Below, one piece after another: positions 13,634-32,306 of a DNA stretch of 32,306 nucleotides (position 1 is its first letter; every line of letters begins with the position of its first letter). The notes below the pieces were generated by a model. The model saw nothing but the letters and a program-made list of their open reading frames with translations. It was not told the origin of the DNA and did not search any database. Location of the stretch: NCBI GenBank assembly GCA_003241965.1, contig QBMB01000018.1, forward strand, positions 25,203 to 57,508. The letters run 5' to 3'. The DNA is from Burkholderiales bacterium. Its GTDB lineage: Bacteria; Pseudomonadota; Gammaproteobacteria; Burkholderiales; Burkholderiaceae_C. The position numbers were made by a program, and so were the translations under genes.

Positions 13634-13705
13634 AGGCAAGCACGTCGATGACCAGGTCTGTCGCTCGCACAGACCTTCACTGACGCGCCCGTTTCGTCGC
13701 CCTGC

Positions 13706-13745
13706 GCGCCCCCCGAGACCTGTGGTCCGGGGGGCGCTCTTTTTT
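13706..13745 (+). terminator. Intrinsic terminator of the repeat-protein gene
   Basis: GCGCCCCCCG at 13706 pairs with the G-rich arm ending at 13737 (stem of about 14 bp with one bulge, loop TGT), followed by TCTTTTTTT. This is a textbook Rho-independent terminator. Confidence 0.9.
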
Positions 13746-13804
13746 TCGCGCCCCCGCTGCACACCCCGCCCTGCGTGCAACCCGAAGGAATCGTCGAGCA
13801 TCCC

Positions 13805-13841
13805 TTGACTCAATTTTTACTTGATCAAATATAGTTTTGAT
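13805..13841 (+). promoter_or_regulatory. AT-rich promoter and candidate ArgP operator of the lysine unit
   Basis: The AT-rich island at 13805-13855 stands out in a GC-rich window. TTGACT (13805-13810) is followed after 17 nt by AATATA (13828-13833) or after 19 nt by TATAGT (13830-13835). The -10 lies inside a perfect inverted repeat, ATCAAA-TATAGT-TTTGAT (13824-13841). LysR-type proteins such as ArgP often bind AT-rich dyads, and a LysE/ArgO gene lies 95 nt downstream, so ArgP control is inferred. Confidence 0.6.
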
Positions 13842-13935
13842 TGATTCAGTTTAATTCTCCGGGCTGAACAGGCACACTGCCTCCATTCACCCGTCTCGCC
13901 TTCGCGAGCATCCACGGTTCCCGGAGCAGCTCGTC

Positions 13936-14571
13936 ATGACACTCGCCTTCCTCTCCCCCACCTTCACCGCCGGCATGGTGCTGAGCATCTCGCTGATCAT
14001 GGCCATCGGCCCGCAAAACGCGCATGTGCTGCGCATGGGCCTGCAGCGCCAGCACCTCGGGCTCACCGTGATCACCTGTGCGCTGGCCGACGTGGTGCTC
14101 ATCGGGCTGGGTGTGATGGGTCTGGCGCAGCTTGGCGGCCTGTCCGACAAGTTGCTCGGTGCGCTGGTGGGTGCGGGCGTGCTGTTCCTCGGCGTCTACG
14201 GCTGGCAGGCGTTCCAGCGTTTCCTGCACCCGCGTGTGCTCCAGCTCGAAGACAACGCCACCGTGGTGGCCGAGCCGGTCTCGCGCCGCCAGGCCGTGCT
14301 CTCGGCACTGGCTTTCTCGTGGCTCAACCCGCACGCCTGGCTCGACACCGCGGTGCTGATCGGCACCGCCTCGCTGGCCTATGGCCAGGGCAGCAAGGTG
14401 TTTGGCCTGGGCGCGGCGGCTGGTTCGGTGGTGTGGTTTCTGGCGCTGGGCGTGGCCGCCTTCTGGCTTGGCCGCCGGCTCAATTCGTTGCATGTGTGGC
14501 GTGCGCTGGACGGCCTGGTTGCGCTCATGATGTGGGGCACGGCCATCTGGCTCCTGACCAGCCTGGTCTGA
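13936..14571 (+). CDS. LysE/ArgO-family basic amino acid exporter
   Basis: This 211-residue inner-membrane protein has about six hydrophobic segments and the family signature AIGPQNAHVLRMGLQRQHLG in the first loop, with a second conserved SWLNPHAWLDT in the middle. LysE/ArgO proteins export lysine and/or arginine by proton exchange when intracellular levels are too high. It is the first gene of a plus-strand unit with davB 16 nt downstream. That pairs an exporter with a lysine-degrading oxygenase, so lysine is the likely substrate. A GGAG sequence lies upstream of ATG 13936. The family regulator ArgP is encoded elsewhere in the window (7331-8239). Confidence 0.92.
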   Translation: MTLAFLSPTFTAGMVLSISLIMAIGPQNAHVLRMGLQRQHLGLTVITCALADVVLIGLGVMGLAQLGGLSDKLLGALVGAGVLFLGVYGWQAFQRFLHPRVLQLEDNATVVAEPVSRRQAVLSALAFSWLNPHAWLDTAVLIGTASLAYGQGSKVFGLGAAAGSVVWFLALGVAAFWLGRRLNSLHVWRALDGLVALMMWGTAIWLLTSLV

Positions 14572-14587
14572 ACCCCTGAGGTCTTCC

Positions 14588-16264: not shown

Positions 16265-16275
16265 CGCATCACAAG

Positions 16276-16301
16276 CCGTTCACCCTGAGCCTGTCGAAGG
16301 G
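16276..16301. repeat. Dispersed repeat containing CACCCTGAGCCTGTCGAAGG
   Basis: This short element lies in the 62-nt gap between davB and the beta-lactamase gene. From memory the same sequence occurs as a dispersed intergenic repeat in many proteobacterial genomes. Here it separates two genes of one apparent transcription unit and carries no obvious promoter. Confidence 0.6.
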
Positions 16302-16326
16302 TCGAAGCCCCGGTAGAGTGTTCAAC

Positions 16327-17208
16327 ATGATCCAACGACGCCATTTCACCGCCGCCACCTCGCTGGCCCTCGCCAGCCCCATCGCGCTCTTCTCCACGCG
16401 CGGCCACACCGCGTCCAGCCTGCAGACCCAACTGCAGCAACTCGAAGCCACCGCTCAGGGCCGCCTGGGTGTCCACATCATCGACACCGCCACGGGCCTG
16501 AGCCATGGCCACCGGATGGACGAGCGCTTCATGATGCTCAGCTCTTTCAAGCTGGTTGCCAGCGCCTTCGTGCTGGCGCGGGTGGACCGAGGCCAGGAAT
16601 CGCTGGAGCGGCGCATCACCTTTGCCAAGACCGATCTCGTCACTTACTCGCCCGTGACCGAACGTTTTGCTGGCACCGCCGAGGGCATGAGCCTGGGCGG
16701 CCTGTGCGAAGCCACCCTCACCACCAGCGACAACAGCGCCGCCAACTTCATCCTGGACAGCTTCGGCGGCCCGGTGGCGCTCACTCGCTTTGCGCGCGAA
16801 CTGGGCGACGACACCACGCGCCTGGACCGCCGCGAGACCGAGCTCAACACCGGCACCGCCGCCGCCCTGCTCGACACCACCACCCCGCGCGCCATGGCGC
16901 TCACCCTGCAGAAACTGCTGCTCGGCAACGCACTCTCACCCGCCTCGCGCCAGCAACTGCAGCGCTGGCTGGTGGCCAACACCACGGGCGACAAACGCCT
17001 GCGCGCCGGCCTGCCCAAGGGCTGGCGGGTGGGCGAAAAAACCGGCACCAACGCCACCGATGCCAACGACATCGGCATCGTCTGGCCCGCCAACGGTCGA
17101 GCACCACTGATCATCACCGCCTACCTCGCCGAGAGCACGGCCAGCAGCGCGGTGAAAGAGGCCGCGCTGGCGGGTGTGGCACGGCTCGTGGCCGGTCTCG
17201 CGGGCTGA
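16327..17208 (+). CDS. bla: Class A serine beta-lactamase with twin-arginine-like leader
   Basis: This 293-residue protein has all class A motifs: S72-S-F-K75 (Ambler S70-x-x-K73), S134-D-N136 (SDN loop), E170-T-E-L-N174 (omega loop, Glu166 equivalent) and K238-T-G240. It should hydrolyse beta-lactams through an acyl-serine intermediate in the periplasm. The leader MIQRRHFTAATSLALASP looks like a Tat signal with RRHF. The ATG at 16327 is chosen because the frame upstream has no family similarity. It is sandwiched between davB and davA with no promoter seen, so it may be transcribed with lysine catabolism. Spectrum cannot be told from the sequence; a carbapenemase-type Cys69/Cys238 pair is not seen. 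Confidence 0.93.
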   Translation: MIQRRHFTAATSLALASPIALFSTRGHTASSLQTQLQQLEATAQGRLGVHIIDTATGLSHGHRMDERFMMLSSFKLVASAFVLARVDRGQESLERRITFAKTDLVTYSPVTERFAGTAEGMSLGGLCEATLTTSDNSAANFILDSFGGPVALTRFARELGDDTTRLDRRETELNTGTAAALLDTTTPRAMALTLQKLLLGNALSPASRQQLQRWLVANTTGDKRLRAGLPKGWRVGEKTGTNATDANDIGIVWPANGRAPLIITAYLAESTASSAVKEAALAGVARLVAGLAG

Positions 17209-19749: not shown

Positions 19750-19778
19750 TTAGCACCTTCGAATTACCCCGCTACAAT
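19750..19778 (+). promoter_or_regulatory. Candidate sigma-70 promoter of the plus-strand pigment operon
   Basis: TTAGCA (19750-19755) and TACAAT (19773-19778) are separated by exactly 17 nt and lie 65 nt upstream of the halogenase ATG, in a 194-nt gap between divergent genes. The implied transcript start is near 19785. No regulator-binding dyad is evident. Confidence 0.5.
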
Positions 19779-19842: not shown

Positions 19843-21180
19843 ATGAACAACGACAACCCGGCACCCGAACGACATGCGTGCGACGTTCTCGTGATCGGCG
19901 GTGGGCCCGCCGGCTCCACCGTCTCGCCCCTGCTGGCCGAGAAGGGCCACCGCGTGGTGCTGCTGGAGAAGGCCCACCACCCGCGATTCCACATTGGCGA
20001 ATCACTGCTCCCAGCCAACCTGCCCTTGCTTGAGCGCCTGGGCGTGGCCGACGCGGTGCGCGCCATCGGACAACACAAGCCAGGCGCTGAATTCGTCTCA
20101 CCCCACCACGAACACACGCAGACCTTCGAGTTCGCCGATGCCTGGGACAAGTCCATGCCATTTGCCTACCAGGTGAAGCGAGCCGACTTCGACGAGATCC
20201 TGATCCGGAACGCGCAGAGCAAGGGCGTTGAAGTCCACGAGGGCTGCAAGGCGCGCTCGGTAGAGTTCCTGCCCGAGGGCGGTGTGCGCGTGCACGCCGA
20301 ACACGACGATGGCCGCACCACCGTGTGGGACGCGAAGTTCCTGGTGGACGCCTCGGGGCGCGACACCTTTCTGGCCTCGCGCTTCAAGATCAAGGAGCGC
20401 AACCCGCGCCACAACAGCGCCGCTGTGTACGGCCACTTTTCCAACGCGCGCCGCAACGAAGGCGAGGCCGCGGGCAACATCACCATCTTCTGGTTCGACC
20501 ACGGCTGGTTCTGGTTCATCCCGCTGAACGACGGCGCCACCAGCGTGGGCATGGTGACCTGGCCGTACCATATGAAAACGCGCGCCGGGCGCAGCGTGGA
20601 GCAGTTCCTGATGGACAACGTGGCCACCTGCGCAGGCCTGGCCGATCGGCTGAAGGACGCCCACCTGGTGACACCGGTGGAAGCCACGGGCAACTTCTCC
20701 TACGCCGCCCAGCGCAACCACGGCACCAACTACCTGATGCTGGGCGACGCCTACACCTTCATCGACCCAGTGTTTTCCTCAGGCGTGTGGCTGGCCATGA
20801 GCGGTGGCGAACTCGGCGCGCAGACCATCGACACCTGCCTGCGCCACCCCGGTCAGGCACGCGGTGCGCTCAAGCGCTTTGACCGCCAGAGCCGCCATGG
20901 GCCCAGGGCCTTTTCGTGGTTCATCTACCGCGTCACGAATCCGATCATGCGGGACTTCTTCATGGGTCCGCGCAACATCTTCCGCGTGAAGGAGGCGCTG
21001 CTCTCCACCCTGGCCGGCGACGTGTTCGGCGGCGCGCCGATCGGGCGTTCGCTGCTCGCGTTCAAGGCCCTGTACTTCGCCGCCAACGTCATGCAGCCCC
21101 GGCGCGCGTTCGCCGCCTGGCGCAACCGGCGTGCCAACATCCGTCCGGTGGACGACTCGGCCCTGGCCCAGACTCCGTGA
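19843..21180 (+). CDS. Flavin-dependent halogenase, xanthomonadin-type
   Basis: This 445-residue flavoprotein has the FAD-binding GGGPAGS (residues 19-25) and the diagnostic halogenase motif WFWFIP (W222 to P227, WxWxIP). Phenolic-type halogenase features are also visible: HPRFHIGESLLP at 47-57 and a Lys at K79 within KPGAEF, which could be the catalytic lysine that carries the chloramine/bromamine adduct. By analogy with xanthomonadins, which are brominated aryl polyenes, it may halogenate the aryl head or polyene of the pigment. The halide and substrate are inferred. It needs a separate flavin reductase, not seen here. It is the first gene of a five-gene plus-strand operon, and its stop overlaps the chorismatase start (GTGA). 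A related non-halogenating oxidoreductase is the main alternative. Confidence 0.85.
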   Translation: MNNDNPAPERHACDVLVIGGGPAGSTVSPLLAEKGHRVVLLEKAHHPRFHIGESLLPANLPLLERLGVADAVRAIGQHKPGAEFVSPHHEHTQTFEFADAWDKSMPFAYQVKRADFDEILIRNAQSKGVEVHEGCKARSVEFLPEGGVRVHAEHDDGRTTVWDAKFLVDASGRDTFLASRFKIKERNPRHNSAAVYGHFSNARRNEGEAAGNITIFWFDHGWFWFIPLNDGATSVGMVTWPYHMKTRAGRSVEQFLMDNVATCAGLADRLKDAHLVTPVEATGNFSYAAQRNHGTNYLMLGDAYTFIDPVFSSGVWLAMSGGELGAQTIDTCLRHPGQARGALKRFDRQSRHGPRAFSWFIYRVTNPIMRDFFMGPRNIFRVKEALLSTLAGDVFGGAPIGRSLLAFKALYFAANVMQPRRAFAAWRNRRANIRPVDDSALAQTP

Positions 21181-22166
21181 CGCTGCACCACACGGCCTGG
21201 CCAGCACCGGGCGCCCCCGGCAACCTGCTGGGGGGCGTGGCCATCGGTGATGTTCCCTCAAAGCCTGCTGTGGATTGGCCGCTGCAGCACCTGCGCGCGC
21301 CATTGCTCTCTGCCGGCGCGGCCAGCCTGCACGAGGTGTGGCGCACCGACGAACCCGTGGCGTCAGGCCACAGCGAAGGCATCCAATGGCGGCGCAGCGC
21401 CGATGTGCTGATGGGTGTGATCGAGCTGCCGGAAGACGCAGGCAACGACACGCCGCTGCAGGCGGCCAGCCAGCTCGTGTACGAGCGTGTGTTCGCCCTG
21501 CTGCGCGCGCAGGGTACGCCCCACCTGTGGCGGGTGTGGAACTACCTGGCCGACATCAACGGTGAATCGCATGGGCTGGAGCGGTACCGGCAGTTCAACC
21601 AGGGTCGGTACACCGCCTTTGTGCAGGCGCAGCGCGACACCGGCGGACAGGTTCCCGCGGCCTGCGCCATCGGCGTGGCGGGGGGTCCGCTGTCGGTGGC
21701 TTTTCTGGCCGGCACTTCGCCGCTGGTGCCGCTGGAGAACCCGCGCCAGGTCAGCGCCTGGAACTACCCCGCGCAACATGGGCCACGTGCTCCCTCTTTC
21801 TCCCGCGCGGCGCTGGCCTACCCGCGCGGACAAGAGGTGTTGTTCGTCTCGGGCACGGCCAGCATCGTCGGGCACGAAACGGTGCACCCCGGCGATGTGG
21901 CCGCGCAGTGCCACGAGACCGTGCGCAATCTCGAATGCATCGTCCGGGAGGCCAACCGCGTGGCCCGCTCGGCCCAGCCGTTTTCACTCGCCGGGCTCAG
22001 CCACCGCGTCTACGTGCGGCACGCGGGTGACGCCGGCACCGTGCGGCGCACGCTGCAACCGCTGCTGCGCGGTGCGCCGTTCGTGTGCGTGCAGGGCGAC
22101 ATCTGCCGGGCCGATCTGCTGGTGGAGATCGAGTCCCAGGCCCTCCACCCGCTGGACCCGGCATGA
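21177..22166 (+). CDS. xanB2: Chorismatase, XanB2/FkbO/Hyg5 family (hydroxybenzoate synthase)
   Basis: This 329-residue protein belongs to the chorismatase family, which releases pyruvate from chorismate to give hydroxybenzoates or dihydroxycyclohexadienoates. XanB2 of Xanthomonas makes both 3- and 4-hydroxybenzoate, feeding xanthomonadin and ubiquinone synthesis. The diagnostic block RVWNYLADINGESHGLERYRQFNQGRYTAF lies at residues 119-148, followed by the conserved C-terminal FVCVQGDICRADLLVEIE. The start is GTG at 21177, overlapping the halogenase stop; the frame is open upstream into that gene. Position beside a halogenase and polyene-forming ketosynthases strongly suggests it supplies the aryl starter unit. 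Whether it gives 3-HBA, 4-HBA or both cannot be read from the sequence. Confidence 0.9.
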   Translation: MTLHHTAWPAPGAPGNLLGGVAIGDVPSKPAVDWPLQHLRAPLLSAGAASLHEVWRTDEPVASGHSEGIQWRRSADVLMGVIELPEDAGNDTPLQAASQLVYERVFALLRAQGTPHLWRVWNYLADINGESHGLERYRQFNQGRYTAFVQAQRDTGGQVPAACAIGVAGGPLSVAFLAGTSPLVPLENPRQVSAWNYPAQHGPRAPSFSRAALAYPRGQEVLFVSGTASIVGHETVHPGDVAAQCHETVRNLECIVREANRVARSAQPFSLAGLSHRVYVRHAGDAGTVRRTLQPLLRGAPFVCVQGDICRADLLVEIESQALHPLDPA

Positions 22167-22936
22167 GCGCTGTGAACCGGCCGACCTCGCTGCTGTGGAA
22201 GGTGTACGAACACGTTGCAATGGTCGTGGGCCTGGGCACGCTGGCGGTGCTGTGCCTGAGCTGGTTGCCCCTGGCGCTGGCGCTGTACCCGGTGCTGCCA
22301 GGCGCCATGGGCCGCTGGCTGGGCCGCCAGGTGGTCATGCGGGGCTTTCGCTTGTATCTGGGCGTGCTGCGCCTGCTGTGCGCCTGCCGCTTCGACCTCA
22401 GCGCCATCGACGCGCTGCGCGACCAGGGGCCGATGGTCATCGCGGCCAACCACCCTTCCCTGCTCGACGCGGTGCTGATCACCTCGCGCCTGCCCAACGC
22501 GGTCTGCATCATGAAGGCCAGCCTGATGGACAACCCCTTGTTCGGCGCGGGCGCGCGCATGGCGCGGTATGTGCGCAACGACAACCTGCTGGGCGCCGTG
22601 CTGAGATGCCGGCGCGAGCTGCGACAAGGCGCGCAGCTGGTGATCTTCCCTGAAGGCACGCGCACGCTGGGCTACCCGGCCAACCCGCTCAACGCGCTGT
22701 CGCGCTCGACCGCGCTGATCGCCATCAGCGCCGCCGTGCCGGTGCAGACCCTGATCATCGAATTCTCCAGCCCCTACCTGGGCAAGGGCTGGCCCCTGTG
22801 GCGCAAGCCCACCCTGCCGCTGACCTGCAGCGTGCGCCTGGGCAAACGTTTCGAAGCGCCCCGCGATGCGCGGGCCTTCACCACCGAGCTCGAAGCCTAC
22901 TTGCGTGCCGAGCTCGCACAACCCACAAGCCCATGA
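22163..22936 (+). CDS. 1-acylglycerol-3-phosphate acyltransferase-like protein (PlsC fold)
   Basis: This 257-residue membrane-associated acyltransferase has one or two N-terminal hydrophobic helices (about residues 19-45), the catalytic NH97PSLLD102 (HX4D) motif and FPEGTR at 161-166, which binds the acceptor phosphate. The family usually acylates lysophosphatidate. In aryl-polyene clusters such proteins are thought to attach the polyene acyl chain to a glycerolipid-type or sugar acceptor. The ATG at 22163 overlaps the chorismatase stop (ATGA). The acceptor here is unknown. Confidence 0.88.
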   Translation: MSAVNRPTSLLWKVYEHVAMVVGLGTLAVLCLSWLPLALALYPVLPGAMGRWLGRQVVMRGFRLYLGVLRLLCACRFDLSAIDALRDQGPMVIAANHPSLLDAVLITSRLPNAVCIMKASLMDNPLFGAGARMARYVRNDNLLGAVLRCRRELRQGAQLVIFPEGTRTLGYPANPLNALSRSTALIAISAAVPVQTLIIEFSSPYLGKGWPLWRKPTLPLTCSVRLGKRFEAPRDARAFTTELEAYLRAELAQPTSP

Positions 22937-23691
22937 CCCCACCCAGCACCACCCACCTGGTTCTCATACCGAGCTACAACCCCGGCCGCAAGGTGCTGGC
23001 CACGGTGCGCGCCGCGCGCGCGCAGTGGACGCCGGTGTGGGTGGTGGTGGACGGCAGCACCGACGGCTCGGCCGACTGGCTGAGCACCGAGGCCACCGCC
23101 GACCCGGGCCTGCGCGTGCTGGTGTTGCCGCAGAACCAGGGCAAGGGCTCGGCCGTGCTGCACGGCATCACGCTGGCGGCGCAGGCCGGCTTCACCCACG
23201 CGCTCACCATGGACTCCGACGGCCAGCACCCGGAGACCTTGATTCCCGACTTCATGGCGGCATCGCAAGCCGCGCCGGGTGCCATGGTGCTGGGCAAGCC
23301 GGTGTTCGGGGCCGAGGCGCCCGCGCTGCGCGTGAACGGGCGCAAGGTCTCCAACGCCTGGGCCAACCTGGAAACGCTGGGCATGGGCATCGGCGACTCG
23401 CTCTACGGCTTTCGCGTCTACCCCATCACGCCGCTCATGAAAGTGATGCGCAGCACGCGTTTCATGCGCCGCTTCGACTTCGACCCCGAGGCCGTGGTGC
23501 GCCTGTGCTGGGCTGGCGTGCGCCCGATCAACCTCGCCGCCCCGGTGCGCTATTTTTCGGCGCAGGAAGGCGGCGTGTCGCACTTCAAATACCTGCGCGA
23601 CAACGTGTTGCTGACCTGGATGCACACGCGCCTCTTCATCGGTTTCCTCTGGCGACTGCCGCTGCTGGCGTGGCGACGACTGAAGGACTGA
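22933..23691 (+). CDS. Family 2 glycosyltransferase
   Basis: This 252-residue protein has a GT-A fold with LIPSYNPG (nucleotide-binding strand), VVVDGSTDGSAD (D40-D44), GKGSAVLHG and the metal-binding DSD of TMDSDGQHP (D94-D96). This resembles dolichol-phosphate-mannose-type transferases. The C terminus has a hydrophobic/basic segment (LFIGFLWRLPLLAWRRL) that could anchor it to the membrane. It overlaps the acyltransferase gene by ATGA. In xanthomonadin-type clusters a family 2 transferase accompanies the acyltransferase, so it may attach a sugar to the pigment lipid. Donor and acceptor are not evident. Confidence 0.9.
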   Translation: MTPPSTTHLVLIPSYNPGRKVLATVRAARAQWTPVWVVVDGSTDGSADWLSTEATADPGLRVLVLPQNQGKGSAVLHGITLAAQAGFTHALTMDSDGQHPETLIPDFMAASQAAPGAMVLGKPVFGAEAPALRVNGRKVSNAWANLETLGMGIGDSLYGFRVYPITPLMKVMRSTRFMRRFDFDPEAVVRLCWAGVRPINLAAPVRYFSAQEGGVSHFKYLRDNVLLTWMHTRLFIGFLWRLPLLAWRRLKD

Positions 23692-23698
23692 ACCCACC

Positions 23699-24913
23699 AT
23701 GAACACGACCGAAATTTTCCTGATCGCGATAGTGATCATCTTCACCGTGCCCTGGCTCATCTGGCGCGTGGCGCGCACCGACTACTGGGCCCCGCTGGTG
23801 GTGGTGCAGATCATCACCGGCATCCTGCTGGGGCCGGGGGTGCTCGGCCAAGCCTGGCCCGAGGCCTACCGGTTCGTGTTCAATCCCACCGTCATCCAGT
23901 CGCTGAGCGGCATTGCGTGGTGGGCGGTGATGCTGTTCGTGATGATCGCGGGCGTGGAGCTGGATTTGCGCCAAGCCTGGAAAGACCGGCGCGACAGCAG
24001 CATCACCGCCGGCCTGGCGCTGGGCACGCCGCTGCTGCTGGGCTGCGCCGCTGCGCTGGTGTTGCTGAGCCAGTCCGGCTGGGTCGGCAGCAACGCGCGG
24101 CCCTGGCAGTTCGTGCTGGGCGTGGGCATGGCCTGCGCGGTCACCGCCCTGCCCATCCTCATCTTGCTGATGGAGAAGATGCATGTGCTGCGCCAGCCGC
24201 TGGGCCAGCGCATCCTGCGCTATGCCAGCCTGGACGACATCGCCATCTGGGGCGTGCTCGCGCTGATCCTGATGGACTGGCAGCGCGTGGGCAAACAGGC
24301 GACGTTCATCCTCGCCTTCGTCGTGCTGAGCTGGGCCTTCCGCCACCTGATGCGCCGCCTCCCCGAGCCCGACCGCTGGGCCGTGAGCCTGATCTGGCTC
24401 GCGCTGTGCGCCTTCGGTGCCGACTGGTGCGGCCTGCACTACATGGTGGGCGCGTTCCTCGCCGGCGTGGTGATGGACGCGGAGTGGTTCGATCAGGAGA
24501 AGCTCGACCTGCTCCGCCACCACGTGCTGCTGGTGCTGATGCCGGTGTTCTTCCTCTCCACTGGCCTGCGCACCGAATGGGCGGTGGGCGGCGCGGCGGT
24601 GTTCGGCGCAGCGGCCCTGCTGCTGGTGGCATCCGTCAGCGGCAAGCTGCTGGGCGTGCACGCCGCCGGGCGCTGGCTGAAATGGCCCCCGGGCGAAGCC
24701 TCCATCATCGGCTGGCTGCTGCAGACCAAGGCCCTGATCATGATCATCTTCGCCAACATCCTGCTGGACAAACAGGTCATCACCAACGAGACGTTCACTG
24801 CGCTTCTGCTGATGGCGGTGGCCAGCACGATGCTGACGGTGCCGATGGTGGCGCCGCGGCTGCGTCAGGGCCGCAGCGAGAACCCTGTCGAGGTCAGGCC
24901 ATCGCCCCATTGA
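23699..24913 (+). CDS. CPA2-type cation:proton antiporter
   Basis: This 404-residue membrane protein has about 12 hydrophobic segments and the Na_H_Exchanger-type layout: GILLGPGVLG in the early re-entrant helix, FVMIAGVELDLRQAW (the acidic VELD helix typical of Kef/CPA2), and TALPILILLMEKMHVLRQPLG. It should move Na+ or K+ against protons. It starts 7 nt after the glycosyltransferase stop and is the last gene of the plus-strand pigment operon. I know no established role for an antiporter in aryl-polyene synthesis, so its presence here is noteworthy. Its stop lies 20 bp inside the 3' end of the convergent fabG-like gene. Confidence 0.85.
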   Translation: MNTTEIFLIAIVIIFTVPWLIWRVARTDYWAPLVVVQIITGILLGPGVLGQAWPEAYRFVFNPTVIQSLSGIAWWAVMLFVMIAGVELDLRQAWKDRRDSSITAGLALGTPLLLGCAAALVLLSQSGWVGSNARPWQFVLGVGMACAVTALPILILLMEKMHVLRQPLGQRILRYASLDDIAIWGVLALILMDWQRVGKQATFILAFVVLSWAFRHLMRRLPEPDRWAVSLIWLALCAFGADWCGLHYMVGAFLAGVVMDAEWFDQEKLDLLRHHVLLVLMPVFFLSTGLRTEWAVGGAAVFGAAALLLVASVSGKLLGVHAAGRWLKWPPGEASIIGWLLQTKALIMIIFANILLDKQVITNETFTALLLMAVASTMLTVPMVAPRLRQGRSENPVEVRPSPH

Positions 24914-25613
24914 TGGAGATGACCTGCCCGCTCACATAGGCCGCCTTGTCCGACGCCAGAAACGCCACAAGCTCGGCCACCTCATCAACACGCCCTGCGC
25001 GCTGCATCGGCACCAGGCGCTTGATGGCCTCGGCATCGAATGCGCCTTCGATCATGTCGGTTTCGATGATGCCGGGGGCCACCGCGTTGACGGTGATGCC
25101 GCGGCTGGCGAGCTCCAGGGCGAGTGACTTGCTGGCCGCGTGCAGCGCGCCCTTGGCAGCGGCGTAGTTCACCTGGCCGCGGTTGCCCATGACGCCGGCC
25201 ACCGACGAGATGCTGATGATGCGGCCCCAGCGGGTGCGGATCATCGGTAGCGTGAGCGGCTGCGTCACGTTGTAGAAGCCGTTGAGCGACACATCGAGCA
25301 CGCGGTCCCACTGTTCGCCGCGCATGCCGGGGAACACGGCGTCGTCGTGGATGCCGGCGTTGTTCACGAGAATCTGCACCGCGCCGGCCTCGGTCAATGC
25401 GGCGAGCGCGGTGGCGGTGGCGGCGCGATCGGTCACGTCAAACGCCACGGCTTCGGCGCTGCCGCCTGCCTCACGAATGGCTAGCGCGGTGGCCTGGGCT
25501 TTGTCGAGCGCGCGGTGGGCGTGCACGATGACATGGTGGCCGTCGGCGGCCAGGCGCTGGCAGATGGCAGCGCCGATGCCGCCGCTGCCGCCGGTGACGA
25601 GGGCTCGTTTCAT
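24894..25613 (-). CDS. fabG: 3-oxoacyl-ACP reductase, FabG family (polyene ketoreductase)
   Basis: This 239-residue short-chain dehydrogenase has the NADPH motif TGGSGGIG (residues 7-14), NNAG (84-87), N111 and the catalytic S137, Y150 and K154 in ISSVAGVMGNRGQVNYAAAKG. It ends with the typical YVSGQVISINGAMA. It should reduce the beta-keto group on each cycle of polyene elongation. Start ATG 25613 overlaps the dehydratase stop (ATGA); the frame stays open upstream for 230 codons but without family similarity. It is the last gene of the minus-strand operon. It may substitute for the housekeeping FabG, but its position makes a dedicated pigment role likely. Confidence 0.94.
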   Translation of the reverse strand: MKRALVTGGSGGIGAAICQRLAADGHHVIVHAHRALDKAQATALAIREAGGSAEAVAFDVTDRAATATALAALTEAGAVQILVNNAGIHDDAVFPGMRGEQWDRVLDVSLNGFYNVTQPLTLPMIRTRWGRIISISSVAGVMGNRGQVNYAAAKGALHAASKSLALELASRGITVNAVAPGIIETDMIEGAFDAEAIKRLVPMQRAGRVDEVAELVAFLASDKAAYVSGQVISINGAMA

Positions 25614-26074
25614 GGGGGTGTCCTTGTTGCAAGCTGGTCGGCGTCGAGCACCACGGCGGCGCGCCCTTCCACCAGGCAGCGTTCGCCGTGGTGGAGCGAG
25701 AAGCGGTAGAGCACGTTGTTCACGTCGCTCGACACACGTTCGGCACGCACGCTCAGCGGGCCTTGCAGATCGTCGAGCCGCTCGGCGTGCAGGGTGACGC
25801 TGCGCACGCTGGTGAGGTAACCCTGGCGAGGTGCGGCGTGGGCGCCGGCCACCAGCGCGCCGTGCACCGCCATGGCCTGTGCGGCGTATTCGATGCCGTT
25901 GGCCGCGCCCAGGCGACCTGCTGCGCGCAGCGGGTGCGCCGGGTCGGTGTGGCCCACGGCGCGGCAGACGATGTGATCGGCCGACCACTCGGTGACCGCG
26001 TCGAGCAGGCACATGGTGCCCTGGTGCGGAATGCGCGCGGCGATGCCGTCGTGGTTCAAGACGGCTGGAATCAT
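25610..26074 (-). CDS. Hotdog-fold 3-hydroxyacyl-ACP dehydratase of the aryl-polyene pathway
   Basis: This 154-residue protein has a FabZ/FabA-like hotdog layout: IPHQGTMCLLDAV (H17, catalytic His candidate) and ANGIEYAAQAMAVH (E62, catalytic acid candidate). These are the family motifs of APE dehydratases (ApeI/ApeP-like). It should dehydrate 3-hydroxyacyl-ACP to the trans-2-enoyl-ACP that builds the conjugated polyene. Because no enoyl reductase is seen, double bonds would remain. ATG 26074 overlaps the preceding gene stop (ATGA) and its own stop overlaps the fabG-like start (ATGA). Confidence 0.88.
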   Translation of the reverse strand: MIPAVLNHDGIAARIPHQGTMCLLDAVTEWSADHIVCRAVGHTDPAHPLRAAGRLGAANGIEYAAQAMAVHGALVAGAHAAPRQGYLTSVRSVTLHAERLDDLQGPLSVRAERVSSDVNNVLYRFSLHHGERCLVEGRAAVVLDADQLATRTPP

Positions 26075-26955
26075 GCTGGCTCGATCCGGACCGCGAGCTG
26101 CAGGCCAGGCAGGTAGTCCAGGCACACATCGCCGCTGCGGCCCTGCGCCAGGCACTCCAGCAAGGGGAGTGAGCGCAGGGCGGGAATGGTGGCACGCAGC
26201 GCTTCCAGCGTGGGCTGCTGCAGCGGCAACACAGGCGCTTCAGTGGTCTGCACGGTGATGCGCGCCAGCGCCTGCGCCGTGCGCGTGGGCTCCAGCCGCA
26301 GCGCCACACCCGCGCAGTCAGGCACCGAACGTTTGGCGAGCAACGGTTCGGGGTATTCGCTGTCGTAGGCCAGCAGCAGGGTGGCCTGCTGGTCCAGCAC
26401 CACCTGGCCCAGCGCGTCGATCAGGCCTGCACCGAAGCTGCCGTCGAACGCGCACATCACCTGGCAGGGCGCCATGGATTTCGTGGCGATGCCCCAGTAG
26501 CCTGCCGGCGCGTTGTGCACCGAGTTGTGAAAGCGCGTGGGCGAGACATGGCGGTCATCGGTGGCGAGTTGTTCGCACAGCGCGTGGCAGTTGTGGCCAT
26601 CCGAACCCGACGAGCTGAACACGGTGGCCAGGGTGGCCACGTCGGCGCCGGCCGCCGCCTCCAGGCCGATGCCCAGCGTGAGTTTGATGACGCGGCTGGC
26701 GCGGCGGCGCTCGGCGGGCGGCAGGATCACAGGCGCTGGCAACACGGAAGGCGCCGACACCCAGGCCTCTTCGCCGCGCAGCACGGCGCGTGCGCTCGGC
26801 CAGTCGGGCAGGCCGGGTGCGATCAGGCCGATACCGGAGATCCAGGCACTCAAGGGCGCAGGAGGGTTGAAGCGATCCGGCGTCGGGCCGCCACAAGCCG
26901 GATCAGCCCCCTCGGGGGGCAGCGACCCGTGCAGCGGTGGAGCGTGGGGGCTCAT
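26071..26955 (-). CDS. Beta-ketoacyl synthase chain-length-factor-like protein
   Basis: This 294-residue protein resembles the half-size Ketoacyl-synt_2 family found next to aryl-polyene ketosynthases. It has KS-like segments (ISGIGLIAPGLPDW, TVFSSSGSDGHNCHALCEQL, NSVHNAPAGYWGIATKS) but no cysteine nucleophile or His-His pair, so it probably acts as a chain-length factor or scaffold paired with the KS encoded by the preceding gene. ATG 26955 shares ATGA with the KS stop. Residues 1-25 are encoded by a G/C-rich dispersed repeat, so the conserved protein really begins near LSAWISGIG, where a TTG codon could also start. The repeat seems to have been incorporated into the frame. Confidence 0.85.
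   Translation of the reverse strand: MSPHAPPLHGSLPPEGADPACGGPTPDRFNPPAPLSAWISGIGLIAPGLPDWPSARAVLRGEEAWVSAPSVLPAPVILPPAERRRASRVIKLTLGIGLEAAAGADVATLATVFSSSGSDGHNCHALCEQLATDDRHVSPTRFHNSVHNAPAGYWGIATKSMAPCQVMCAFDGSFGAGLIDALGQVVLDQQATLLLAYDSEYPEPLLAKRSVPDCAGVALRLEPTRTAQALARITVQTTEAPVLPLQQPTLEALRATIPALRSLPLLECLAQGRSGDVCLDYLPGLQLAVRIEPA
26890..26955. repeat. G/C-rich dispersed element forming the 5' end of the chain-length-factor gene
   Basis: On the plus strand GCCCCCTCGGGGGG (26906-26919) forms a hairpin, followed by GCGACCCG and, near the start codon, GAGCGTGGGGGCTCAT. Its neighbour segment AAGCCGGATC also occurs in the element at 2459-2600. From memory this is a common intergenic repeat in Comamonadaceae, here translated as MSPHAPPLHGSLPPEG. 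Confidence 0.65.
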
Positions 26956-28157
26956 GTTCTCACCTTGCCGAACACCAGGCTGCAGTTGCTGCCGCCAAAA
27001 CCGAACGAATTGGTGAGCGTGTGGCGCAGCGTGGCAGGTGCTCCGCGCAACTGGTAGTTCATCTGCAAAGCGGGGTCCAGCGCGCGCGTGCCCGGGCTGC
27101 CGGGTATGAGGCCGTCGACCAGCGCGAGCGCACACAAAACAGCTTCCACCGCACCGGCCGCGCCCAGGGTGTGGCCGGTGGCGCCTTTGGTGGACGAACA
27201 CGGCACCCGCTCGCCGAAGACCGCCAACACAGCCTTGCCTTCGGCGCTGTCGTTGGCCGGCGTGGCCGTGCCGTGCAGGTTGATGTAGTCGATGGCGTCA
27301 GCCCCCAGCGAGGCCGAGCGCAACGCAGCCTGCATGGCCATCTGCGCGCCCAGACCCTCGGGATGGGGCGCGGACATGTGGTACGCGTCGCTGGACTCGC
27401 CCGCACCCAGCAGCCACACCGCGTCGGCGGGCAAGGACGGGGCATCGGGGTCGGCGCGCTCCAGCAGCGCATAGGCCGCGCCTTCGCCGATGGAGATGCC
27501 GTTGCGGCCCGCGTCGCAAGGCCGGCAGGGCTCGGCAGAGGTGAGTTCGAGCGAGGCAAAACCGTACAGCGTCGTCAGGCACAGCGAATCCACACCGCCC
27601 ACCAGCGCTGCGTCGATGGTGCCCAGCTCCAGCTGGCGCGCTGCGGCGGCGAACACCTTGGCGCTGGACGAACAGGCAGTGGAGATGGTGGTGGCCATGC
27701 CGGTGATGCCGAGGTGCTCACGCAGCAACTCGGCCAATGCGTACGGGTTGTGCGTGTGGCCGTAGCTGAAGGCGGCGGGCAGTGCGCCGGTGGCGGGGTC
27801 GCGCGCTCGGTAGGCCAGCTCGGTCTGCAGGATGCCGGAGGTGCTGGTGCCCATGAAGACGCCCACGCGGCCCGCACCAAAACGTTCAATGGCGGCGCGC
27901 GCACGCGCCTCGAAACCGTCGGCCTTCAGGGCCCACAGGGCCAGCCGGTGGTTGCGGCATTCGTAGGCAGCCAGAGCCGTGGGCAGCGGGTGCGCGTCCA
28001 CCCCGGGGACCTCACCCACCCAGGTGGGCAGGTCCACCGTCTCGAAGGTGCAAGGCTGCAGACCACTGCGGTCCTCGCGCAGGGCGGCCCGGTGGGCATT
28101 GAGCCCCACACCCAGGCAGGTGGTGGCGGTAAAGGCGGACAGCAGCAGGGGCTTCAC
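26952..28157 (-). CDS. Beta-ketoacyl-ACP synthase of the aryl-polyene pathway (KS-I/II)
   Basis: This 401-residue FabB/FabF-type condensing enzyme has the Cys-His-His triad: C162 in STACSSS, H295 in NLHGTATPAND and H329 in STKGATGHTLGAAG. It should condense malonyl-ACP onto the aryl starter and growing polyene. The start GTG at 28157 gives MKPLLLSAFTATTCLGVG, close to the typical APE ketosynthase N terminus, but no good ribosome-binding site is visible. It lies 53 nt downstream of the methyltransferase gene, the largest internal gap in the operon. Its stop overlaps the chain-length-factor start, consistent with a KS/CLF heterodimer. Confidence 0.93.
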   Translation of the reverse strand: MKPLLLSAFTATTCLGVGLNAHRAALREDRSGLQPCTFETVDLPTWVGEVPGVDAHPLPTALAAYECRNHRLALWALKADGFEARARAAIERFGAGRVGVFMGTSTSGILQTELAYRARDPATGALPAAFSYGHTHNPYALAELLREHLGITGMATTISTACSSSAKVFAAAARQLELGTIDAALVGGVDSLCLTTLYGFASLELTSAEPCRPCDAGRNGISIGEGAAYALLERADPDAPSLPADAVWLLGAGESSDAYHMSAPHPEGLGAQMAMQAALRSASLGADAIDYINLHGTATPANDSAEGKAVLAVFGERVPCSSTKGATGHTLGAAGAVEAVLCALALVDGLIPGSPGTRALDPALQMNYQLRGAPATLRHTLTNSFGFGGSNCSLVFGKVRT

Positions 28158-28210
28158 GGCAGGACGCTGGACATGGGGTCGGGCATTGTCTCAGATGGGC
28201 TGAAGCAGGC

Positions 28211-28933
28211 TCAGTACGGTACCCGACACACCAGCATCACGTTGGCAAAGGGTTTGCGCCCGCTCATGGGCTCGGCCTCGACCACGAAGCCCAGGTGCTG
28301 CAGCTCGGTCACCCAGTCGGCCAGCGTGCGGCAGTACAGGCGCGGCAGGCGGTGGCCGCGTGTGTAGGTGACGAGGCGGTCCACCCCGTTGCAGATGCGG
28401 TAGGTCAGGCCTGCGCCGGCGTCGCCGATGCGGGTGAGGAACACACCGCCGGGGACCAGCGCCTGGCGGATGCGCGTGAGCACGGCGCGCTGCGCCTCAA
28501 AGCTGAAGTAGTGCAGCGCATCCAGGATCAGGATGGCGTCGGGCCGGCCGAAGTCGACCGTGTTCATGTCGCCTTGCTCCACCCGCACCACCGGGTGCTG
28601 CGGGCCGAAGGCGCGCACGGCGCGCTCCACGTCGCGCTGCATCAGCTCCACGCCACGCAGTTCCCTGGGCACCGGTGGCGGCGTCCAGCCGGCGGGCCAG
28701 TGGCCCTGCTCGTGCAGCCGGCGCGCGGCCAACAGCCAGGCGAACAGGCTGCCCTGACCACAGCCCAGGTCCAGGTAGTGGCCGCCTTCGGGCAGCAGGC
28801 CGCGGCGCAGCAGCTCGTGAAAGATGCTGTCGTAACCGAGCTTGCCGCGCGCATAGTGGTAGGCAAAACGCCCGCTGGCGCGGAAGGTCTGGCTGGCTTC
28901 GTTCACCAGGGATTTGACGAAGGGTCGGCTCAT
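28211..28933 (-). CDS. SAM-dependent methyltransferase
   Basis: This 240-residue protein has the class I SAM-binding signature LDLGCGQGS (residues 54-62), the acidic post-II segment VEQGDMNTVDFGRPDAILILDALHY and a post-III GGVFLTRIG. Substrate is not evident. In a cluster with a chorismatase-made hydroxybenzoate starter, O-methylation of the aryl hydroxyl is attractive, since xanthomonadin I has been described with a methoxyphenyl bromide head. That is inference. The ATG at 28933 overlaps the deacetylase-like gene stop (ATGA). Confidence 0.86.
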   Translation of the reverse strand: MSRPFVKSLVNEASQTFRASGRFAYHYARGKLGYDSIFHELLRRGLLPEGGHYLDLGCGQGSLFAWLLAARRLHEQGHWPAGWTPPPVPRELRGVELMQRDVERAVRAFGPQHPVVRVEQGDMNTVDFGRPDAILILDALHYFSFEAQRAVLTRIRQALVPGGVFLTRIGDAGAGLTYRICNGVDRLVTYTRGHRLPRLYCRTLADWVTELQHLGFVVEAEPMSGRKPFANVMLVCRVPY

Positions 28934-29730
28934 GAAAGGGCTTGGGTCAGCGTGACAGGGTGCAACTGGCGCTCGGTGATGGTCTGCAGCAGGCGCGGCA
29001 GCACCGCGAGGATCACCGGTTCACCAGCGGGGGTGCGGGCGGCGTGGCCGTCGTGCATGAGCACGATGTCGCCAGCGCCCAGGTGCTGCGCCAGGCGCTG
29101 GTGCACCCGCTGCGGGTCGCCGGTGCGGGTATCAAAGGCGCGGCGCGTCCAGGTGGCGAGCTGCAGGCCCAGGCCGTGCAGCACCGGGTCCAGAAACGGG
29201 TTGCGCAGGCCGGCGGTGGCGCGAAAGAACTGCGGTGCCTGGCCGGTGATGTCGCTCAACGTGGCCTGCGCACGCACGATGTCGCGGCGCATGGCCCCCG
29301 GCCCCCACAGCGAAAAAGCGTTGCTGTGCGCAAAGCCGTGGTTCTCCACGCGGTGGCCGCGCTGCACGATGCTGCGGCACAGCGCGGGGTGTTGCTGCGC
29401 GATGCGGCCGATGCAGAAGAAGCTGGCGCGCACGTTCGCAGCGTCCAGCAGGTCGAGCACACGCGGCGTCACATCGGGGTCGGGCCCGTCGTCGATGGTG
29501 AGCGCGATTTCGCGCCGCTGCGCGGCCGCCTCGGGCAGGCGGGTGAGGTTGGGGCCGAGCAGGCGCGAGCTCGGCCACAGCCCGGCGCCGGCCAGCAGCG
29601 CGTGGTTGGCCACCAGGGCTCCCACCGCCCAGGGCCAGACGGCGGGCACGGCGAGCGTGCCCAACAGGGCCGCGCCGTGCACCGCGGCGCTCGCGCTCAA
29701 GAAGGGGGTTGGGGTCCAGCGCGAGGACAT
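28930..29730 (-). CDS. Membrane-anchored polysaccharide deacetylase-family (NodB homology) protein
   Basis: This 266-residue protein has one or two hydrophobic helices at about residues 13-50, followed by a NodB-type domain: TIDDGPDPDVTP (D80-D81, catalytic and metal Asp), the metal-binding His pair in ENHGFAHS (H131 and H135) and FFRATAGLRNP as the third motif. The family deacetylates N-acetyl sugars in polysaccharide or glycolipid. In xanthomonadin-type clusters it could process the sugar part of the pigment lipid. ATG 29730 lies 1 nt past the hydrolase stop; the frame is open far upstream without similarity. Substrate unknown. Confidence 0.86.
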   Translation of the reverse strand: MSSRWTPTPFLSASAAVHGAALLGTLAVPAVWPWAVGALVANHALLAGAGLWPSSRLLGPNLTRLPEAAAQRREIALTIDDGPDPDVTPRVLDLLDAANVRASFFCIGRIAQQHPALCRSIVQRGHRVENHGFAHSNAFSLWGPGAMRRDIVRAQATLSDITGQAPQFFRATAGLRNPFLDPVLHGLGLQLATWTRRAFDTRTGDPQRVHQRLAQHLGAGDIVLMHDGHAARTPAGEPVILAVLPRLLQTITERQLHPVTLTQALS

Positions 29731-29731
29731 G

Positions 29732-30376
29732 TCAGGCGGGGAAGTGACCGGCATCGAGGAACTGCTCCCACAGCGGCGACCAGGCGGCCCAGTCGTGCCC
29801 ACCCGGCACCGTGTGGCGCGACGCGGGCGGGAAACGCTCGGCCACGCGCTGGATGCGCGCAGCGAACCGGTCTTCGGTACCGTGGCCGATGAACCCGGGA
29901 AGCTCGGGGGGCGGGCGCTGCAGCCACTGCCACACGCGCAGCTCGGGGTCGCGCAGATCGTCTTCGTTGGGCTGCCAGTGGTCCGGCCCGCCCGCACGCT
30001 CAACCACGTTGACGCTGGGGCGGCTGCCCGGATACGGCGCGAGCAGGCAGAGACCATCGGCCACTCCGGGTCGCGCGGCCACATGCGCCATGGCCACCAT
30101 GCCGCCCAGCGAGATACCGCCGAGCCACACGCGGGCACCGCGCTCGCGCGCCGGCAGGACGATGTCTTTCTGCAAGGCATCCCAGGTGTCCACCGCATCG
30201 AGCCCGAGCCCGCCGATGTCCACCGAAAGCAGGTCCAGCGGCAGGCGGCGGTGCTCGATGGCGCGGGCAAAGCCGGCGTCGAACAGGGCCTCGGGGCGCA
30301 TGCCCACACCGGGCAGCATCACCAGCAGGTTCGGTGCAGCGCTCAAGCGGCCCACGGTGCGCAACGAGGTCGTCAC
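29732..30376 (-). CDS. Small alpha/beta hydrolase
   Basis: This 214-residue protein has the nucleophile elbow GISLGG with S89, and likely acid and His partners D169 (GHGTEDRF) and H194 (VPGGHDWAAW). No lid domain is apparent, so it resembles small esterases or thioesterases. It may release or transfer the polyene acyl chain or hydrolyse an ester of the pigment; this is inference from position. Translation starts at GTG 30376, sharing GTGA with the MMPL stop. It is the second gene visible in the minus-strand operon. Confidence 0.85.
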   Translation of the reverse strand: MTTSLRTVGRLSAAPNLLVMLPGVGMRPEALFDAGFARAIEHRRLPLDLLSVDIGGLGLDAVDTWDALQKDIVLPARERGARVWLGGISLGGMVAMAHVAARPGVADGLCLLAPYPGSRPSVNVVERAGGPDHWQPNEDDLRDPELRVWQWLQRPPPELPGFIGHGTEDRFAARIQRVAERFPPASRHTVPGGHDWAAWSPLWEQFLDAGHFPA

Positions 30377-32306
30377 GGCATGGGCTTTCGCGCGGCGAAT
30401 GCAGCCGACAGCACCAGTGCGAGCATGGCACCCGGCCCCACCGTCACGCCGATCGCCTGCAGCACCGGCACGGAGGAGAAGGCCAGCACGCCAAAGCCGA
30501 TGGCGGTGGTGGCGCTGGCCACGCCGATGGACAGCAGGGTTTCGTCGTCCAGGGCTTCACCGAGCGAGAGGCGGTCGAAGAACAGCGCGTAGTTGGAGCC
30601 CACGGCCACGGTGAGCAACACACCCACCAGGTGCAGCAGGTGCAGGCGCACGCCGAAGACATGCAAACCCGCGATCACCACCATCACCGCCATCACCAGC
30701 GGCAGCATCACGCCCGCCAGCCGCGCCGGGCTGCGCAGCACGAAGGCCAGCACCACCACGATGGCCAGGAAACCGGCCATCGACAGCAGAACCGCCTCAT
30801 CGATGTACTCGCCATACAGGGTGTCGAACTCACCCTTGAGGTCGATGAAGATCGCGCCGCTGCCCGCCAGCGCAGCGCGCACGGCCTCCACCGGAATCTC
30901 CGCGCCCACCGCGCCCGGTGCCGGGCGCAGCGGCAACAGCACGCTCCAGCCACTGGCGCGTTGCAGCAGCAGCGCGTCCACCGCCAGGCCCAGGCCGGTG
31001 CCTTCGAGGTCCTGGCGCGAGAGGTTGGCCGCGCTGCGCGCGGCCTGCACATCCTCCAGAAAAGGTTGCAGGCGCTCGGCCGAAATCGGTGCATCGGCCA
31101 GCGCCACCCGCAGGCGCGTGGCGAGCTCGTCGGGTGGTGGCAGGCTGGCGCGGCGTGCGTTCTGCATCGCCTCGCTGGGCAGGAAACGCGCCGGGGTGTC
31201 GAAGCCGCCGATGAATCCTTCGTCCACCAGGCGGCGCAGCTGTGCGCCCGCGCGCTCGGCCGCCTGCAGTGCGCTCTCCCGGTCGGGCGCGGTGATCACG
31301 GCCATGTAGCGCGCATCGGGCGCACCGAGGTCGGCGCGCAAGCGGGCGTCCAGCTCACCTTCGGCCTCGGTCACCGTGGACAGCGCGGACAGATTGGGGT
31401 ACCAGAGTTCGTTGCGGTTCTGGGCCAGGTACACGCCCGCCACGAGCACCAGGGCCAGCAAAGGCCAGCGCAACACGCCGGCGTGTGCCACCAACGGGCG
31501 CAACACGCGGCCCTGGCGCGCACCGTCGGCCAGATGCACGCCGGGGCCTGCCAGGTGGGGCAGGAGATAGCGCGTGACCAGCGCAGCGGTGAGCACACCG
31601 CTGATGGCGTACAGGCCCAGCTGCGCCAGACCGGGGAAGCCCGAGAACAGCAGCGCACCAAAACCCAGCAGCGAGGTGAGCACGCCCAGGCGGATGGTGG
31701 GCCAGTACTGCTCGCGCCAGGACACCGCGCCCATGCGCCCGGACTGCACGAAGTAGTAGATGGCGTAGTCGACCGCCTCGCCGATGAGCGCGGCACCAAA
31801 GCCGACCGTGATGCCGAACACGGTGCCGTGCACCAGCCCGACCGTGACGATGGCGGCCAGCGTGCCGCTGAGCACCGGCACCAGGGTGAGCAGCATGAGG
31901 CGCGCGCGGCGGTACACGAAGCCCAGCAATACCGCGATGATCACGGTGCTCATGATCGACAGGCGCGTGACCTCTTGCTGGATGGTGGCGCGCGCGCGCA
32001 CCGCGAACAGGCCCGGGCCCGACATCTCCATGCTCAGGCCGCTCAGCCCCGGCTGCTGCGTGGCGGATGCAAAACGCGCGCGGATCAGGTCGATGGCAGC
32101 CGATTGCCCGTCGGTGTCGGAGCCCAGCGCGTGTGTCTGCACCAGCAGCATGGCGCGCTCGCCATCGCGCGAGGCCCAGACGCCCTCCACCTCGTTGGGC
32201 TGCACACCGCCGCCCAGGCCCGAGACCAGCTCGACCAGCTCGCCCGGGGGGTCGCGCGCGAGGTAGGGTTTGAACAGCAGGCCGGCCGACGAGCTGAGCA
32301 GGTCGA
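30373..32306 (-). CDS. MMPL/RND-superfamily exporter, 5' end beyond the window
   Basis: The frame is open from the right edge to the stop at 30373; 643 residues are visible. They contain about nine or ten hydrophobic helices in two MMPL-type blocks (for example IMSTVIIAVLLGFVYRRARL and DEAVLLSMAGFLAIVVVLAF) separated by a long periplasmic loop, with GFGALLFSGFPGLAQLGLYA and GFGVLAFSSVPVLQAIGVT as paired RND signature helices. Such exporters in aryl-polyene clusters are thought to move the pigment lipid across the inner membrane. The frame has no stop before the right edge, so the true start is outside. It is the most upstream visible gene of the minus-strand pigment operon. Confidence 0.9.
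   Translation of the reverse strand, partial: DLLSSSAGLLFKPYLARDPPGELVELVSGLGGGVQPNEVEGVWASRDGERAMLLVQTHALGSDTDGQSAAIDLIRARFASATQQPGLSGLSMEMSGPGLFAVRARATIQQEVTRLSIMSTVIIAVLLGFVYRRARLMLLTLVPVLSGTLAAIVTVGLVHGTVFGITVGFGAALIGEAVDYAIYYFVQSGRMGAVSWREQYWPTIRLGVLTSLLGFGALLFSGFPGLAQLGLYAISGVLTAALVTRYLLPHLAGPGVHLADGARQGRVLRPLVAHAGVLRWPLLALVLVAGVYLAQNRNELWYPNLSALSTVTEAEGELDARLRADLGAPDARYMAVITAPDRESALQAAERAGAQLRRLVDEGFIGGFDTPARFLPSEAMQNARRASLPPPDELATRLRVALADAPISAERLQPFLEDVQAARSAANLSRQDLEGTGLGLAVDALLLQRASGWSVLLPLRPAPGAVGAEIPVEAVRAALAGSGAIFIDLKGEFDTLYGEYIDEAVLLSMAGFLAIVVVLAFVLRSPARLAGVMLPLVMAVMVVIAGLHVFGVRLHLLHLVGVLLTVAVGSNYALFFDRLSLGEALDDETLLSIGVASATTAIGFGVLAFSSVPVLQAIGVTVGPGAMLALVLSAAFAARKPMP

Follow-up and report, generated by a model that had tools for sequence, protein, structure and literature searches.

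A probable xanthomonadin/arcuflavin-type aryl-polyene locus with a flavin-dependent halogenase in a Burkholderiales bacterium

We analysed a 32,306-nucleotide stretch of contig QBMB01000018.1 (positions 25,203 to 57,508; GenBank assembly GCA_003241965.1, Burkholderiales bacterium), referred to throughout as the window, whose right-hand part (19843-32306) holds a cluster of genes that very probably encodes a xanthomonadin/arcuflavin-type aryl-polyene pigment pathway. Genes were called as open reading frames with their starts checked, and families were assigned by Pfam and NCBIfam profile searches (Table 1). The window ends at a scaffold gap within the gene for an MMPL-family exporter, with a short stretch repeated on either side of the N, and the right flank was read on locus L005 (C87:57000-76999) of the same contig. 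The source genome measures 4.89 Mb in 177 contigs and is 99.97% complete.

The cluster consists of two convergent rows. On the plus strand, the junctions from halogenase to chorismatase, chorismatase to acyltransferase and acyltransferase to glycosyltransferase are 4-base overlaps, and the row closes with an antiporter whose stop (24913) overlaps the ketoreductase (KR) stop of the minus row (24894) by 20 bases. In the minus row the ketosynthase (KS), which has the TACSSS cysteine and two motifs with His that we take as KS marks, adjoins a KS-like chain-length-factor (CLF-like) gene. The hydrolase reached Pfam only below threshold, and the dehydratase-like gene keeps its place between KR and CLF-like gene in relatives; we assigned both from their places in the published arc gene list and their conservation in relatives, and the hydrolase also from its predicted structure. 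A first-pass annotation of the sequence had named twelve functions here, from chorismatase to exporter, and had read them as a xanthomonadin-type cluster in two convergent operons. All twelve are present where it placed them as open, overlapping or closely packed genes, more weakly supported for dehydratase and hydrolase, and families, order and strands bear out the overall arrangement; its list had overlooked the CPA2 antiporter. It had also expected an acyl carrier protein (ACP), an aryl-activating ligase, a LolA-like gene and a second KS to the right, and L005 supplies all of these, with two ACPs and an AMP-ligase. A lack of ACP and ligase genes in the vicinity, which that annotation had named as evidence against its reading, is therefore not what the flank shows. 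The second KS and second ACP stand at the head of the minus row, and an intervening gene without a family match is presumably COG4648-like. Because the genes are so tightly packed, we infer one transcript per row, giving a minus operon of 16 genes and a plus operon of 5.

Table 1. Genes of the aryl-polyene cluster, its right flank and the photosynthesis loci of the same genome. Coordinates are those of the window unless a locus or contig is given.
Gene or feature	Coordinates	Strand	Basis
Window	G000:C87:25203-57508		
Flavin adenine dinucleotide (FAD)-dependent halogenase (ArcA-like)	19843..21180	+	PF04820 Trp_halogenase 3.6e-30
Chorismatase (ArcB/XanB2-like), GTG start	21177..22166	+	FkbO/Hyg5 PF21168 2.4e-40; TIGR04444 2e-70, below NCBIfam cut-off
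Phospholipid/glycerol-type acyltransferase (ArcD-like)	22163..22936	+	PF01553 2.3e-15
Family 2 glycosyltransferase (ArcE-like)	22933..23691	+	PF00535 9.4e-17
CPA2 cation:proton antiporter (ArcG-like)	23699..24913	+	PF00999 1.1e-34; TIGR00932 4.2e-25, below cut-off
3-Ketoacyl-ACP reductase, KR (ArcH-like)	24894..25613	-	NF004200 FabG 370 bits, above cut-off
Dehydratase-like protein (ArcI-like)	25610..26074	-	named by position
KS-like CLF-like protein (ArcJ-like)	26071..26955	-	PF13723 3.4e-23
KS (ArcK-like)	26952..28157	-	NF006618 1.7e-159, above cut-off
S-Adenosylmethionine (SAM) methyltransferase (ArcM-like)	28211..28933	-	PF13649 1.2e-9
Polysaccharide-deacetylase (NodB-like) protein (ArcN-like), start codon uncertain	28930..29700	-	PF01522 3.5e-27
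Alpha/beta hydrolase (ArcO-like)	29732..30376	-	S89, D169, H194; predicted structure
MMPL-family exporter (ArcP-like), cut by scaffold gap	30373..32306	-	PF03176 7e-13 on 30373-32205
LolA	L005 1046-1615	-	family match
Acyltransferase	L005 1612-2517	-	family match
FabA/ApeI-like dehydratase	L005 2514-2852	-	weak matches
AMP-ligase, gap inside	L005 2821-4245	-	C-terminal part PF00501 7.4e-21
Protein without family match	L005 4242-4904	-	
ACP	L005 4938-5231	-	family match
FabF-like KS (second KS)	L005 5232-6509	-	family match
ACP (second)	L005 6513-6761	-	family match
PAP2 phosphatase gene, diverging	L005 6999-7655		
Photosynthesis and carotenoid genes	G000:C91 (L133), G000:C115 (L186, L187)		

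The closest published counterpart by gene content is the pair of arcuflavin clusters of Azoarcus sp. BH72, arcA-L and arcM-X, with which we compared the locus as a list of functions rather than by sequence, assigning arc letters by function and order. The first Azoarcus locus lists halogenase, chorismatase, outer-membrane protein, acyltransferase, glycosyltransferase, reductase, Na/H antiporter, KR, dehydratase, CLF-like protein and KS, and the second methyltransferase, polysaccharide deacetylase, a hypothetical protein, exporter, LolA, acyltransferase, dehydratase, ligase, another hypothetical protein and ACP (PMC3949708, Table 1). The functions of arcA-K and arcM-V recur here in the same order except for arcC and arcF (PMC3949708), in one continuous locus where Azoarcus has two. 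We saw no counterpart of arcC (MipA-type), arcF or arcW/X between 19843 and the PAP2 gene; relative to the arc list, the window cluster has the extra ACP and KS at the minus-row head, and the genome has a single gene of the ketoacyl-ACP synthase III (KAS III) type.

Other pigment clusters share parts of this set. By description, the Xanthomonas xanthomonadin cluster likewise combines the XanB2 chorismatase, KS, CLF-like protein, KR, dehydratase, acyltransferase and halogenase (PMC3691225, PMC3949708), and its product is a mixture with 0-2 bromines (PMC3691225). The yellow-pigment cluster of Lysobacter enzymogenes shares the KS with its ORF16-type partner, KR, two dehydratases, acyltransferase and ACP, as well as the lipoprotein-carrier and exporter genes and ORF5, the XanB2 homologue, and its ORF16-17 adjoin as the CLF-like gene and KS do here; that cluster is described as having no halogenase gene and its pigment was judged non-brominated, whereas a halogenase is present in the window (PMC3691225). 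Flexirubin clusters of Chitinophaga and Flavobacterium share the polyene enzymes, polysaccharide deacetylase, acyltransferase, LolA, glycosyltransferase and exporter but start from a tyrosine ammonia-lyase and end in a dialkylresorcinol ester (PMC3992019); the word halogenase is absent from the main text of that paper. Cluster type and host group also meet in the literature: an antiSMASH listing for Hydrogenophaga sp. SL48 gives an arylpolyene region with Xanthomonadin I among similar known clusters (PMC12993520), so the type is already known in the Hydrogenophaga group.

The likeness to arcuflavin raises the question of whether the polyene forms an ester with a dialkylresorcinol as it does in that pigment, since the polyene gene list is the same (PMC3949708). 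Formally, the extra KS and ACP at the minus-row head also resemble darJ and darC. We used PF08541 as a KAS III stand-in in the search for Dar proteins (NF035922 proved to be another family), on the assumption that DarB would match it. The 99.97% complete genome contains only one such match (DarA was not searched for), and this gene sits with an ACP and a FabF-like KS in an apparently ordinary fatty-acid locus, leaving the dialkylresorcinol ester very improbable.

We examined the distribution of the cluster in a sample of 200 genomes of the family, the source genome included (halogenase E<=1e-60, polyene KS E<=1e-100, chorismatase E<=1e-20). A halogenase relative occurs in 35 of the 200 and every one of these 35 also holds the polyene KS, a co-occurrence that exceeds chance; in 22 of the genomes the pair is found on a single contig no more than 20 kb apart, in the other 13 not. 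The 44 strong-KS genomes divide into 22 with both halogenase and chorismatase, 13 with the halogenase but not the chorismatase, 5 with the reverse and 4 with neither; chorismatase without a strong KS was found in two genomes. The sample contains one further genome from the genus of the source organism, and in it KS, halogenase and chorismatase all lack a match at these cut-offs. Similar clusters, also with the ACP2-KS2 pair at the head, occur in two further genera of the family (G178 and G042).

Halogenase relatives are common beyond this sample: a scan of GTDB genomes with the halogenase matched at least 596 stretches, of which at least 588 were confirmed and the best 80 kept. Among the matches listed, the nearest named relative of the halogenase is that of Hydrogenophaga sp. 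IBVHS1, at 89% identity; two other Hydrogenophaga bins follow at 87 and 88% and a Comamonadaceae bin at 87%. The source organism may itself be Hydrogenophaga or close to it. The convergent arrangement is also common. The best 80 include 52 named relatives whose locus runs on for 8.5 kb or more past the halogenase. A ketoreductase gene lies downstream in 42 of these, and 33 show the strict pattern, in which halogenase and glycosyltransferase share one strand and KR and KS the opposite one; the other 19 have genes missing, a different order or a locus end. Loci of at least 15 kb (n=50) gave a chorismatase match in 31 cases and an antiporter match in 31; some of the antiporter matches are weak and lie on the opposite strand. 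In one close relative, L039, a DNA cytosine methyltransferase gene and two open frames (12968-16344) lie between glycosyltransferase and KR, the place of the antiporter in the window.

In a quick tree of 47 halogenases (the window and 46 of the 80 loci; 34, many of them short contigs, were left out by hand and without a fixed rule), the window groups with three Hydrogenophaga rows and one Comamonadaceae row (Shimodaira-Hasegawa-like approximate likelihood-ratio support, SH-aLRT, 100). Other Hydrogenophaga rows are scattered in several places, one of them beside a Rhodocyclales-rich group (87), and the cluster may have been transferred between lineages. The cluster also occurs on locus L108, whose contig comes from a metagenome bin and bears the name Bordetella parapertussis, probably in error.

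The chorismatase is predicted to supply the aryl starter. In alignment with chain 5ag3, whose residue numbering fits Hyg5, its G226, C310 and E317 fall on G240, C327 and E334. Gly-231 and Cys-318 of a Hyg5-type enzyme are described as marks of the subfamily, and Glu-334 of Hyg5 is named as the catalytic residue (PMC7170507); the first two correspond to G240 and C327 of 5ag3 by a constant offset of 9. The third subfamily mark, a Gly in PMC7170507, is Ala (A164) in the window. From 95 chorismatase matches, 92 were readable at all positions, a set that includes three copies of the window sequence and other duplicates; G, C and E are kept in 92/92, and at the third position 87 have Ala, 3 Gly and 2 Cys. 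Because the G226, C310 and E317 positions are kept, the enzyme is likely of the type that forms 3-hydroxybenzoate (3-HBA). XanB2-type enzymes also form 4-hydroxybenzoate (4-HBA), ArcB makes both and ArcT acts on 3-HBA (PMC3949708); residues G226, C310, E317 and A164 neither show nor exclude 4-HBA formation as in XanB2/ArcB.

That second product leaves room for an aryl polyene built on another starter, with the chorismatase feeding ubiquinone only. Relatives may indeed use other starters, since 13 of the 35 halogenase genomes have no chorismatase match; in the window, however, the chorismatase start overlaps the halogenase stop and the protein retains the three residues, Gly, Cys and Glu, that go with 3-HBA formation, and we regard the other starter as improbable, though slightly less so than the dialkylresorcinol ester. 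The 13 genomes, together with a chorismatase presence that changes at least 6 times across the quick tree, led us to reject a fixed halogenase-chorismatase unit.

By sequence, the solved relatives of the halogenase are themselves halogenases: 8zop, 3e1t (which we take to be CndH), PltA 5dbj, 5buk, ChlB4 7fco and CmlS 3i3l. In all three alignments to solved relatives examined, K79 aligns with a lysine. WxWxIP and FxxPxxSxG occur in 30 of 30 halogenase loci examined, the window among them, and these motifs and K79 are invariant in 21 of 21 aligned halogenases (the window and 20 of 29 relatives); we take all three as halogenase marks. The enzyme probably adds bromide or chloride to the ring and/or chain, and we put the chance that the pigment is halogenated at about even. 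The first-pass annotation had proposed a halogenated aryl-polyene pigment lipid, on the model of xanthomonadins as brominated, methoxylated aryl octaenes. Polyene cluster type and halogenase motifs agree with that proposal, while neither halogen nor octaene is established: Azoarcus sp. BH72, whose arcA is listed as a halogenase, has a pigment described as a non-brominated aryl-heptaene (PMC3949708).

This precedent favours the same pathway yielding a mature pigment without halogen, the halogenase being unexpressed, bromide-starved or acting as a hydroxylase, and 9 of the 44 strong-KS genomes have no halogenase match at the cut-off. Against it, the uniform retention of K79 and both motifs points to kept halogenase chemistry in the proteins compared, a comparison in which the Azoarcus ArcA was not included. 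We judge a halogen-free pigment a serious alternative, somewhat short of even. Near some clusters there is also a second, distant (~25%) halogenase-like FAD protein (L046 8196-9836, by Pfam; similar in L049, L063 and L070), and L063, L066 and L070 have a second KS/CLF-like pair.

The ArcO-like hydrolase (214 aa) is predicted to adopt an alpha/beta hydrolase fold (predicted local distance difference test, pLDDT, 93.2, from a 19-sequence alignment), with S89, D169 and H194 invariant in 19/19 aligned sequences. Its fold neighbours include monoglyceride lipases, S-formylglutathione hydrolases and feruloyl/cinnamoyl esterases (TM-score to query 0.53-0.65 over the 50 rows listed), matches that define the fold and not the function; the protein may act in polyene acyl release or transfer. 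Every one of the 17 genomes in which an ArcO relative occurs also has the strong polyene KS, and several of these relatives are encoded far from it or on a different contig. With a relative in just 17 of the 44 strong-KS genomes, ArcO is an accessory gene and unlikely to be the general chain-release enzyme.

Together, domains and gene order, the right flank, the halogenase motifs, the chorismatase residues, the co-occurrence with KS and the likeness to the arc list lead us to the aryl-polyene pathway. Several points weigh against it. The dehydratase-like protein matches no Pfam or NCBIfam family, and assembly gaps interrupt both the MMPL and the ligase gene, so that neither frame was read whole. 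Two relatives whose other cluster genes are 78-93% identical, L039 and L040, have no ArcM match and no antiporter match, and L039 has no chorismatase match either. To these are added the 13 halogenase genomes without a chorismatase match, by which the two genes are no fixed unit, and the non-brominated Azoarcus pigment from a gene list with a halogenase. The evidence for this organism's pigment comes from its genes. The gaps on L005, at ~510 in the MMPL gene and ~3880 in the ligase gene, each have short repeated stretches alongside; gaps and repeats are likely assembly artefacts.

In the pathway we propose, chorismatase would form 3-HBA, which the AMP-ligase would load onto ACP, a substrate assigned by analogy. 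KS and its CLF-like partner, KR and the dehydratases would elongate this starter by malonyl units into a conjugated polyene; the aryl hydroxyl would be capped by the methyltransferase, presumably by O-methylation, and the flavin halogenase would act on ring and/or chain. Transfer of the polyene acyl chain to a lipid or sugar carrier could then fall to acyltransferases, hydrolase, glycosyltransferase and NodB-like protein, and the MMPL exporter and LolA could take the pigment to the outer membrane, where it may shield against light and oxidants. The 3-HBA starter, ligase activity, need for both KS and CLF-like protein and the protective role are carried over from papers on relatives; halogenation, the carrier and the parts given to hydrolase, glycosyltransferase, deacetylase and antiporter are our own suggestions. 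In Lysobacter, mutants in KS, ACP, KR and ORF16 lost the pigment and became more sensitive to light and H2O2 (PMC3691225).

The same genome contains two reaction-centre L/M-type genes (PF00124), five genes above their cut-offs (puhA, bchL, bchM, acsF and puhE), a crtI-family gene and a crtB-type gene, the last above the Pfam and below the NCBIfam cut-off. From these genes the organism is probably an anoxygenic phototroph with carotenoids as well as an aryl polyene, and the idea that a yellow pigment is an aryl polyene instead of a carotenoid is untenable given the crtI- and crtB-type genes. A link between phototrophy and the cluster was unsupported: a strong polyene KS occurs in 9 of 34 reaction-centre genomes and 35 of 166 others (Fisher p 0.50), and the halogenase in 8 of 34 and 27 of 166 (p 0.33). 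Literature searches for aryl polyene with bacteriochlorophyll or anoxygenic returned no title on an aryl-polyene cluster in a phototroph, and one pairing aryl polyene with chorismatase returned no match.

Elsewhere in the window, a beta-lactamase-family gene outside the cluster (16327-17208; PF13354 5.9e-40) is followed by a carbon-nitrogen hydrolase, and genes for the light and large subunits of ethanolamine ammonia-lyase (EutC, EutB) occupy 8278-11984 with an AraC-type regulator gene beyond. One promoter-like site lies ahead of the halogenase (19750-19778; 0.6 expected by the scan), and 11 terminator-like sites were found against 5.2 expected (sd 2.8), 11/11 inside genes; neither was used as evidence.

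Aryl polyenes are widespread protective pigments, and this locus suggests a phototroph that combines two polyene pigment systems. Such an organism, a relative of Hydrogenophaga with bacteriochlorophyll, might place a halogenated aryl polyene in its outer membrane as a light filter beside the photosystem carotenoids, with the halogenase kept by selection across Betaproteobacteria even though the one arc-cluster pigment that we found described is non-halogenated; we offer this tentatively, and as a whole it is slightly more doubtful than the halogen-free alternative. The window brings halogenase, chorismatase and polyene machinery together in one locus, and the named genomes closest to it are Hydrogenophaga, with isolates among them. 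The halogenase's job in arc-type clusters thereby becomes open to experiment in cultured Hydrogenophaga.

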